Assembly: GCA_903834145.1 (NCBI GenBank)
Contig: CAILHY010000013.1
Coordinates: 1 to 56,060, forward strand
DNA length: 56,060 nt
Direction of reading: 5' to 3'
Source: an uncultured Actinomycetes bacterium
GTDB lineage: Bacteria > Actinomycetota > Actinomycetes > Nanopelagicales > Nanopelagicaceae
A program made the position numbers and the translations under genes. This document shows positions 40,676-44,114 of this stretch, piece after piece. Every line of letters begins with the position of its first letter. Within the stretch, counting starts at the first letter, position 1. Under the pieces are notes generated by a model, which worked only from the letters and a program-made list of their open reading frames with translations, was not told where the DNA came from and made no database searches.

Positions 40676-40713
40676 AACGGGTCCCCTGATAACAGTGGGC
40701 CCGTTTTATTTTT
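40676..40713 (+). terminator. intrinsic terminator after rplI
   Basis: AACGGG-T-CCC (40676-40685) pairs with GGGCCCGTT (40697-40705) with one bulged T and an 11-base loop, and TTATTTTT follows. It lies against the stop of the convergent choline-kinase-like gene and could serve both strands. Confidence 0.85.
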
Positions 40714-41623
40714 GCGTTACCTGATGAAGCATTTTCTGGAAACGATCACTTGTAAATTCTGATTGCGCTAAATCGTATTTAGCCATTCCCCATTCCCAGA
40801 AATCGAATTCTAGATCTGACACTGAACTTTGAATGGATGCCCACATTGTCCATCCGTATTTACCCAGAAGAGCTTGTAGCCATGCCCGAGCGAACTTCTC
40901 TGGGCGGTTCCCACCGTAATAAGCGGTGACGAGTTCTTCAAGTTTATCTAACTCCAGGAAGGATTCAGCCCAAATGTTACCGAGTTCAAAGCACGCATCA
41001 TTGTTTCCTGAATATTCATAATCAATAAGCCAAATTTTTTCACCATCATCAATAAAATTCCCTGGTAAAAGATCGTTGTTACATGGCACGGTCCCCTCAT
41101 CGAGAACTTTCATAGCCTTTCGCATCTGAAGAACCTGGTCTGCGTAGTGCAAATAATTCTTAGGGATCCGGTATCCGCGTTCTTGAACAATGGAAAGATA
41201 CGTCTTTTGAATCTCAAACATATTGAAGTCCCGCACGAATGGCTTTGCCCCATGCAGTGTTCGGCATGCTTGGGCAACTCGAGGTAAATTTGCAGAAACA
41301 TCATTTGCAGCAAAAGTTCGGCCCGTCAAAAATCCAATCACTAACAATCCTTGACCTGACAAATAATCAAATACCGGAGCGCCAATACCTGCCTCTGCAG
41401 CAATCATTGAATTGCGATACTCAGACTCGCGGTCTATTGAAAGCAATTCTGATTTATTGCTGGAAATTCTTGCGACAAATTTCCCCTCAGCCGTTTCAAT
41501 TAATAAATTACGATTTGTTAAACCTCCCGAGAGTTCAATAACCGAAGTTCTCCCGATGAGGCGTGGCACTTTATTTAATAACGAACCAAAAGAATCTTCG
41601 ACAGAATCGTTGGTAGAGGGCAC
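40706..41623 (-). CDS. choline/ethanolamine kinase-like phosphotransferase
   Basis: ATP-dependent kinase of the APH/choline kinase fold. It has GGLTNRN (nucleotide loop), the lysine/VARI region, the Brenner motif NNDLLPGN (usual HNDL, with the first His replaced by Asn) and IDYEYSGNN carrying the DxG-equivalent Asp. I chose GTG at 41623 because TATCCT lies exactly six bases upstream; ATG at 41647 or 41638 would add eight or five residues and overlap the divergent gene. The length is 305 residues. Its neighbour, an FAD/GcvT-type demethylase, suggests a choline or methylamine pathway (inference). Confidence 0.82.
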   Translation of the reverse strand: MPSTNDSVEDSFGSLLNKVPRLIGRTSVIELSGGLTNRNLLIETAEGKFVARISSNKSELLSIDRESEYRNSMIAAEAGIGAPVFDYLSGQGLLVIGFLTGRTFAANDVSANLPRVAQACRTLHGAKPFVRDFNMFEIQKTYLSIVQERGYRIPKNYLHYADQVLQMRKAMKVLDEGTVPCNNDLLPGNFIDDGEKIWLIDYEYSGNNDACFELGNIWAESFLELDKLEELVTAYYGGNRPEKFARAWLQALLGKYGWTMWASIQSSVSDLEFDFWEWGMAKYDLAQSEFTSDRFQKMLHQVTQK

Positions 41624-41629
41624 TGCTAC

Positions 41630-41639
41630 AGGATACATT
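41630..41639. promoter_or_regulatory. overlapping divergent -10 elements between the kinase and FAD/GcvT genes
   Basis: On the minus strand TATCCT (41635-41630) lies six bases before GTG 41623. On the plus strand TACATT (41634-41639) lies six bases before ATG 41646. The two hexamers share two bases. Start codons are separated by 22 bases. Confidence 0.55.
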
Positions 41640-41645
41640 TCACTC

Positions 41646-44114
41646 ATGTCTACGTCATCACTTCCTGGCCGTGCAAAAATAATAGTAATTGGCGGAGGTG
41701 TTGGCGGAACCTCAGTTGCTTATCATTTAGCCGAACTCGGCGAGAAAGATGTCATCTTGCTCGATCGCAGCGATTTAACGAGTGGTTCCACTTTCCATTC
41801 CGCAGGTCTAGTAGGGCAATTGCGTGCCGACCCAACGCTCACCAAAATGAATATGCACTCTGTAGATCTTTATCGTCGATTAGAGAAAACAGATACGCCG
41901 CCCAGCTGGAAAGAGTGTGGAAGCATCAAACTGGCCTCAACGCCAGAGCGAATGGAAGAAATTCGCAGACAAATCGGATGGGCCCGCACCTTTGGGCTAG
42001 ACCTTCAAGAAATTTCGCCAAAACAAGCGCAAGAACTCTTTCCGTTGATGGATTTAGATGGAGTTGTTGGCGCGTGTTACATGGCATCTGATGGACAAGT
42101 AGATCCTTCGCAATTAGCACAAGCTCTAGCATCTGGTGCTCGTGCAGGCGGAGTAAAGATCTTCACTCACACCAGGGTCACCGCAATTCGCACGCTCAAT
42201 GGACGAGTCACAGGCGTAGATACCGATAAGGGATTCATTGAATGCGAAAAAGTTGTGAACTGCGGAGGAATGTTTGCCCCAGAAATTGGACGCTTGGTTG
42301 ACGTGCGCATTCCCATCGTTCCTATGAGTCATCAGTATTTGATTACCGAAAACTTTATGCCAGTGGGCGAGAAATACCTCCCATCCTTACGAGATCCAGA
42401 TAATTTGATCTACTTCCGCCAAGAAGTGGGCGGACTACTTATGGGTGGATACGAACGTAATTCGCGCGCGTGGGTTACTGATTACGAACATGTAGATAAG
42501 ATTCCTGCCGATTTTAATGGCAAACTGTTACCCGAGGAATGGGATCGCTTTGAAGAGATCGCTGAGAATTCACAGAAGCGCGTTCCCAAGATGGGCGAAG
42601 TGGGAATTAAGAACTTCATCAATGGCCCAGAAGGATTCACCCCTGATAATGAATTTTGCCTTGGCGAAACATCCGTTGGTGGGTTTTATGTAGCTGCAGG
42701 TTTTTGTGCTCACGGTATTGCTGGTGCTGGCGGTATTGGCAAAGTTGTTGCCGAATGGGTTGTGGCAGGGGAACCAACAATGGATCTCTGGCACATGGAT
42801 ATTCGCCGATTCGGTGCCTCATATAAATCTCCGGAGTACACACTCAAACGCATCACGGAAAATTATGAGGAGTACTACGACATTCACTATCCAGGTGAAG
42901 AGCGCCAAAGTGCACGCCCGCTAAAGAAATCACCTGTTTACGACTGGCATAAAGATGCAGGCGCAGTCTTTGGAGAAAAATCCGGATGGGAGCGCGTGAA
43001 TTACTACTCATCGAATATAACCGACGATGAATTCAAACCCTATGGATGGGCTGGAAAACATTGGTCATCGGCGGTACGTGCAGAGCATTTAGCTACACGT
43101 GAATCCGCTGGACTCTTTGACGAATCCAGTTTTTCGAAATTCACAGTTTCTGGCCCGCGTGCAGCAGAATTTCTCAATTTTGTCTGTGCCAACGATGTTG
43201 TCAAAGGCGTTGGACGCACTGTGTACACACAAGCGCTCAATACAAAAGGCGGAATCGAATCCGATTACACAGTGACACAAACGGGTGACCAAGAGTTCAT
43301 GATTGTTACGGGAACAGCATTTGGAACACATGATCGCCAATGGCTAGAAAAACTCGCACGAGAAAATAATTTTGCGGGTATTGCAATCACGGATATCACC
43401 AGCGACTTGGCATGTTTTGGACTTTGGGGTCCCAAAGCTCGCACGATTATTCAAAGTATCACGGCCTACGACATGAGCCATGAGAATTTTCCATTCATGC
43501 ATTCGCGCGAGATAGAAATAGCAGGCGTGAAGTTGCGTGCAACACGAATTACTTACGTCGGCGAATTAGGGTGGGAGTTGTACGTTTCCTACAAAGATGA
43601 CTCTAACGATGCGGCGAAAGTATGGAGCGCGCTCATTGAAGCAGGAAAAGATCACGGAATGAAAACCTGCGGATATCAGGCTATCGAATCTCTACGTCTT
43701 GAAAAAGGCTATCGCGCATGGGGTGTTGAAATTTCTACCGAAACAAACCCATGGGATGCAGGTCTAGCTTTTGCTGTATCCATGAAGAAAGAATCGTTTA
43801 TGGGCAAAGCAGCACTGGCGCTTTCCAAAGAAAAACTAAACCGCAAACTTGTAGCCATTCTCTTTGATGACATCCGACAAGTTCCACTGGGCAACGAACC
43901 TGTACGCGCGGGAACAGAAATTATTGGTCGCGTTAAGAGTGGTGGTCAGGGATACACGTTGAATAAGGCAATCGGGTACGCCTATTTACCGATTGAGTAC
44001 TCCGAACCTGGATGTGTTTTAGATGTGGAATTTTTTGGCCAATGGAGACAAGGCGTTGTTGCTACCGAACCACTTTTTGATCCAACAAATATGAAGATTA
44101 GGGCGCAAGACTGA
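41646..44114 (+). CDS. FAD-dependent oxidoreductase with C-terminal GcvT domain (dimethylglycine/sarcosine dehydrogenase family)
   Basis: Oxidative N-demethylase of the DMGDH/SARDH family that moves a methyl group to folate. The 822-residue protein has an FAD domain (IVIGGGVGGTSVAYHLAELG, near 14-33; SGSTFHSAGL, probable flavin-linking His region) to about 370, an FAO_M linker (about 380-435), then a GCV_T aminomethyltransferase domain (about 440-820) with ESLRLEKGYRAWG. The long open frame upstream of 41646 has no similarity. Substrate may be dimethylglycine, sarcosine or a related N-methyl compound; sequence alone cannot choose. Neighbour choline-kinase-like gene is divergent. Confidence 0.88.
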   Translation: MSTSSLPGRAKIIVIGGGVGGTSVAYHLAELGEKDVILLDRSDLTSGSTFHSAGLVGQLRADPTLTKMNMHSVDLYRRLEKTDTPPSWKECGSIKLASTPERMEEIRRQIGWARTFGLDLQEISPKQAQELFPLMDLDGVVGACYMASDGQVDPSQLAQALASGARAGGVKIFTHTRVTAIRTLNGRVTGVDTDKGFIECEKVVNCGGMFAPEIGRLVDVRIPIVPMSHQYLITENFMPVGEKYLPSLRDPDNLIYFRQEVGGLLMGGYERNSRAWVTDYEHVDKIPADFNGKLLPEEWDRFEEIAENSQKRVPKMGEVGIKNFINGPEGFTPDNEFCLGETSVGGFYVAAGFCAHGIAGAGGIGKVVAEWVVAGEPTMDLWHMDIRRFGASYKSPEYTLKRITENYEEYYDIHYPGEERQSARPLKKSPVYDWHKDAGAVFGEKSGWERVNYYSSNITDDEFKPYGWAGKHWSSAVRAEHLATRESAGLFDESSFSKFTVSGPRAAEFLNFVCANDVVKGVGRTVYTQALNTKGGIESDYTVTQTGDQEFMIVTGTAFGTHDRQWLEKLARENNFAGIAITDITSDLACFGLWGPKARTIIQSITAYDMSHENFPFMHSREIEIAGVKLRATRITYVGELGWELYVSYKDDSNDAAKVWSALIEAGKDHGMKTCGYQAIESLRLEKGYRAWGVEISTETNPWDAGLAFAVSMKKESFMGKAALALSKEKLNRKLVAILFDDIRQVPLGNEPVRAGTEIIGRVKSGGQGYTLNKAIGYAYLPIEYSEPGCVLDVEFFGQWRQGVVATEPLFDPTNMKIRAQD

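Follow-up and report, generated by a model that had tools for sequence, protein, structure and literature searches.

Bidirectional promoters are a recent addition to the picture of bacterial transcription, known mainly from work on Escherichia coli and Salmonella. In those described by Warman and Grainger, the -10 elements of opposite strands overlap and the flanking divergent genes are often functionally linked (PMC12825309; PMC10268837), with separations of 18, 10, and 23 bp recurring between the two transcription start sites (TSSs) (PMC12825309). In tests of five E. coli bidirectional promoters, the basal activity of every one was too low for transcription one way to influence transcription the other way, and repression was seen only under strong activation of one direction (PMC12825309); leaderless mRNAs are unmentioned in that 2026 paper. 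Leaderless genes are well described in Actinobacteria, where they are marked by a TANNNT element ~12 bp upstream of the start (PMC3160421; PMC3898074) that ends 6-7 bases before ATG or GTG (PMC3898074; PMC3160421; PMC3890552). For example, Mycobacterium tuberculosis prpD and the divergent gene for its regulator both give rise to leaderless mRNAs (PMC3898074; PMC3160421; PMC3890552). Divergent promoters with overlapping polymerase sites also occur in the EcoRV restriction-modification system, which has the C protein as its dedicated regulator (PMC5333194), and at lysG/lysE, which has LysG, a spacer of 108 bp, and just one leaderless lysE promoter (PMC5648196).

The locus considered here lies in a window of 56,060 nucleotides (the whole stretch of DNA that was analysed) from an uncultured member of the Nanopelagicaceae with a genome of 1.75 Mb in 33 contigs. 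The GTG of a kinase gene on the minus strand (41623; CAC at 41621-41623) and the ATG of a demethylase gene on the plus strand (41646) flank only 22 bases, 41624-41645. Within this spacer, the -10 hexamer of the kinase promoter, TATCCT (41630-41635, minus strand), and that of the demethylase promoter, TACATT (41634-41639, plus strand), have the TA step at 41634-41635 in common, and each stands six bases from its own start codon (TATCCT-N6-GTG and TACATT-N6-ATG). The union of the two hexamers is the promoter core, AGGATACATT, at 41630-41639. The sequence confirms the start codons, the spacer, the two shared bases, and the six-base gaps given in a preliminary description of this DNA. We consider it very probable that the 22 bp form one bidirectional promoter of the housekeeping type and the 23-bp class, from which both mRNAs would be leaderless and both genes would be expressed over time.

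Judged by the spacing, the predicted TSS of the demethylase gene is the first base of its start codon (41646, plus strand), and the spacing together with an interchange of GTG and ATG among relatives places that of the kinase gene at the first base of its GTG (41623, minus strand). The predicted separation is 23 bp here and 23 or 24 bp in all 79 relatives, a value that recurs at the bidirectional promoters of Warman and Grainger, which this site also resembles in its overlapping opposite-strand -10 elements and in the functional link between its divergent genes. It is unlike them in that the mRNAs are predicted to be leaderless, with the 22-23 bp between the start codons being the promoter itself, and in that the very same site is retained throughout a family. 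Similarly, the position of TANNNT, 6-7 bases before ATG or GTG, is that of known actinobacterial leaderless genes, but published cases concern either a single direction or a divergent pair of genes, whereas here a single -10 region would serve two genes, an arrangement of which no description was found in the literature searched. Overlapping polymerase sites are likewise a feature that the locus has in common with EcoRV and lysG/lysE. The best-supported reading is a bidirectional promoter, which is of a known kind, from which both predicted mRNAs would be leaderless.

In the proposed mechanism, RNA polymerase would bind at the spacer in either orientation. Bound in the TACATT orientation it would make a demethylase mRNA whose first base is the A of ATG, and bound in the TATCCT orientation it would make a kinase mRNA whose first base is the G of GTG; both transcripts would lack a leader, and the entire intergenic region would be core promoter. 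Each binding event would serve one gene and the two would be expressed jointly from the site over time, with a possible coupling of the kinase/demethylase ratio and its noise. We infer the use of both directions, the start sites, and co-expression from the geometry, its conservation, the start-codon signature, and the enrichment of leaderless signals in the genome.

The gene read to the right (41646-44114, plus strand) encodes a dimethylglycine dehydrogenase/oxidase-like protein, an FAD oxidoreductase joined to a GcvT part, with the domain order DAO, FAO_M, GCV_T, GCV_T_C in one chain. It matches the structures 4pab (E=9e-157, residues 8-818) and 1pj5 at full length and resembles mammalian dimethylglycine dehydrogenase and Arthrobacter-type dimethylglycine oxidase along its whole length; its match to trimethylamine N-oxide demethylase (NF053776) is confined to the GcvT part and reaches 182.7 bits against a cut-off of 1100. 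The gene read to the left (40706-41623, minus strand) encodes a choline/ethanolamine-kinase-like protein of the APH fold, with matches to PF01633 (74.6 bits, above the Pfam gathering cut-off of 29), PF01636 (53.1 bits), and, by profile, the solved structure 3dxq. It falls below the NCBIfam equivalog cut-offs for GntI (153.8 vs 357) and thiamine kinase (66 vs 299). The kinase gene is patchily distributed, being present in 83 of 296 family genomes and 11 of 17 genera and missing from several genomes of the same genus that are at least 95% complete (G008, G010, G011, G016), a pattern that suggests repeated loss or transfer.

The 83 kinase-bearing genomes of the family yielded 79 distinct sequences around the gene starts, and the pattern CAY-N6-ANNNTANNNT-N6/7-RTG was matched in every one, although these relatives are of common descent and do not amount to 79 independent tests. 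Of the cores, 68 read AGGATACATT, ten AGGATACAGT, and one ATGGTACCTT; the TA step is invariant. The kinase hexamer stands exactly six bases from the minus start in 79/79, and TANNNT precedes the plus RTG in 79/79, at six bases in 70 and at seven in nine. GTG and ATG are the sole codons seen at both starts (minus, 55 GTG and 24 ATG; plus, 41 GTG and 38 ATG). On a tree of the N-terminal part of the demethylase, the ten core columns account for four parsimony changes in total (~0.4 per column), compared with 5-26 changes each in the six-base gaps and 23 on average at demethylase third codon positions. As read from this alignment, the conserved object is a start codon, a free gap, the union of two hexamers, a second free gap, and a start codon. 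The comparison lends strong support to the proposal, made from the single sequence, of two divergent leaderless promoters with overlapping -10 elements; a long spacer between the two starts was sought among relatives and was not found within the family.

The preliminary description had also raised the possibility that upstream ATGs of the kinase gene are its true starts, with the two genes overlapping head-to-head. In-frame minus-strand ATGs do occur at 41638 and 41647, and the latter would share two bases (CATG) with the plus ATG, so the arithmetic is right. The ATG at 41647 has a TAA after it in L007-L009 and gives way to ATA or ACC in L016-L020, L022, and L023, and the one at 41638 is missing from all 11 sequences with the core AGGATACAGT or ATGGTACCTT. 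Because of that stop codon and these losses in relatives, both upstream starts are rejected.

Several measurements address how often such an arrangement would arise by chance. In 455 kb sampled from the genome, TANNNT stands exactly six bases before 0.6% of RTG triplets, and among 491 CAY-N22-RTG arrangements in the sample this is the only one with both hexamers. Across the 1.75-Mb genome there are three matches to the fixed-spacing pattern, compared with one for the reversed pattern. Among 406 sampled open reading frames (ORFs), a set whose list of 51 divergent pairs does not include the kinase/demethylase pair, TANNNT is found 66 times at offset 6 against a background of ~9.5, a 7-fold excess, and the excess at offset 7 is 3-fold. 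Leaderless genes are, by this signal, predicted to be common in this genome.

The -35 elements are weak, and this counts against the bidirectional-promoter reading. On the plus strand, a -35-like TTGGTA within the kinase gene (41610-41615) lies 18 bp before TACATT, and its columns change less often than their neighbours in the alignment of relatives; at a spacer of 17, plus-strand -35-like matches average 2.6 of 6, and other offsets scored equally high. On the minus strand, ATGACG within the demethylase gene (41653-41658) lies 17 bp before TATCCT, and CTGACA or ATGACG is found at this spacing upstream of the kinase -10 in 32/79 relatives. Both elements are suggestive only. An Rfam search of the window returned tRNAs only.

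A further way to read the block is that it is not a promoter at all but a Shine-Dalgarno sequence, AGGA, for the plus gene and an overlapping ATG start for the minus gene, with each gene's promoter located within its neighbour. AGGA is found in 78/79 relatives and an in-frame minus ATG falls within the block in 68/79, but AGGA lies 12-13 bases ahead of the plus start, the minus ATG is missing in 11/79 while GTG or ATG stands five codons later in 79/79, and the CCT codon never varies at its fourfold-degenerate third base. In L022, the core is ATGGTACCTT instead of AGGATACATT: this sequence has lost both AGGA and the upstream minus ATG, yet it retains both TANNNT hexamers with their spacings (TACCTT-N6-GTG on the plus strand, TACCAT-N6-ATG on the minus). 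This sequence removes the translational explanation as a rival, and we regard it as highly improbable. AGGA could still be a weak Shine-Dalgarno sequence of the plus gene, though its distance from the start is long; by inspection, no purine-rich motif precedes the kinase GTG. Conservation at all ten core positions, beyond what TANNNT requires, would be explained if the block were also the operator of a transcription factor overlying the promoter, and in Nonomuraea relatives a palindrome, GGTCTAGACC, lies between the two genes and has a GntR/UTRA regulator gene close by. The block is, however, not palindromic, and its limits are exactly those of the two hexamers combined. Moreover, TCAGGATACATTT occurs in 30 relatives at this locus only, except for one extra copy in G018, which rules out a regulon, and neither GGTCTAGACC nor a GntR homologue is present in the family loci fetched. 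An operator is therefore unlikely, but conservation at all ten positions does mean that a further constraint, such as a bound factor or promoter strength, may act on the core of the bidirectional promoter.

What such a promoter would do for the two genes is a separate matter. From the overlap of the -10 elements, the preliminary description had argued that only one polymerase could open the DNA at a time and that the locus is a built-in switch with mutually exclusive expression of the two genes. On such a reading, polymerase bound in one orientation would shut off the other gene and a cell would make either kinase or demethylase. The first part holds for single initiation events, the common TA step making simultaneous open complexes impossible, but it does not extend to the expression of both genes. 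Overlapping divergent promoters do exist in the EcoRV system (PMC5333194), and at E. coli bidirectional promoters a strongly activated direction can repress the opposite one; set against this are the lack of competition at basal activity in all five of those promoters (PMC12825309) and the fact that the searches run found no bistable element or regulator gene. In addition, the kinase gene precedes the demethylase gene on one strand, in an operon-like order, in L024, L025, and L204-L206 from other actinobacteria, which suggests joint expression. Mutually exclusive expression is accordingly improbable, and we favor a bidirectional promoter from which both genes would be expressed over time.

Other actinobacteria keep the same two genes under a different layout. 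They are divergent in 15 Nonomuraea loci, all of which carry the palindrome GGTCTAGACC close to the gene starts; 14 of the 15 also have a gene for a GntR/UTRA regulator in the vicinity. In those loci that allowed both start codons to be located, the genes are separated mostly by 67-69 bp and in one case by 92 bp, and have separate TANNNT elements. The palindrome with a nearby GntR/UTRA gene is seen between the kinase and demethylase genes at L187-L202, L207, and L210, the Nonomuraea loci being among these. We take GGTCTAGACC to resemble DasR-type operators, and the GntR/UTRA gene near it is a candidate regulator of dimethylglycine metabolism. The present genome encodes two UTRA-domain regulators, both elsewhere.

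The kinase/demethylase spacer may not be the only one of its kind in the genome. With the spacing relaxed to six or seven bases, pattern counts showed no excess over a reversed-pattern control (10 vs 11 and 8 vs 14). A filter was then applied that kept a match only if it was flanked by divergent ORFs, each 81 aa or longer and each beginning at the predicted codon; 3/10 matches of the 23-bp class and 4/8 of the 18-bp class (TANNNTA) passed, seven sites in total. Since the counts are not above control, the number of sites rests on gene context and on conservation at two sites other than the target. One of these, L212 (C14:15657-15684), is among the three fixed-spacing matches and is again a shared -10 of the 23-bp class; the two genes it would serve, both predicted to be leaderless, encode a Cys/Met-metabolism PLP enzyme and an ABC ATPase. 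Its geometry is kept in 21/21 sequences of the genus and is not conserved in four other genera, and its core differs from that of the target, being AGTGTAAGGT in most. The other, L251 (C5:100630-100653), has a symmetrical core of the 18-bp class, TACCGTA, with both starts at leaderless spacing; its flanking genes encode a biotin protein ligase and a carboxyltransferase, and it is likewise kept 21/21 in the genus. Further shared -10 sites between divergent ORFs are L247 (C22:82697), L253 (C10:56685), L257 (C22:70595), and L258 (C28:48749), the last with a plus ORF of 81 aa that has no Pfam match. On this evidence, at least six further gene pairs besides the target would share a promoter in this genome.

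If the reading offered here is correct, the promoter would be the whole intergenic region and both start codons would be predicted TSSs, which makes this close to the minimum size for a divergent control region. That the site is conserved across the family argues that lasting selection can act on a shared promoter, and it may offer a compact system for testing how the ratio of two linked enzymes, and its noise, are set by the polymerase's choice of orientation. It would also help to correct start-codon annotation in this group. We speculate, with somewhat less than even confidence, that in this acI/Nanopelagicaceae-like lineage a shared -10 with two leaderless mRNAs is a regular device, with at least seven gene pairs having a two-way core promoter of 17-23 bp as their whole intergenic region. 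At the kinase and demethylase genes, the site occupies the place that a palindrome-bearing spacer, with a GntR/UTRA regulator gene nearby, has in some relatives, and it may set the balance or noise of the two enzymes without a regulator.
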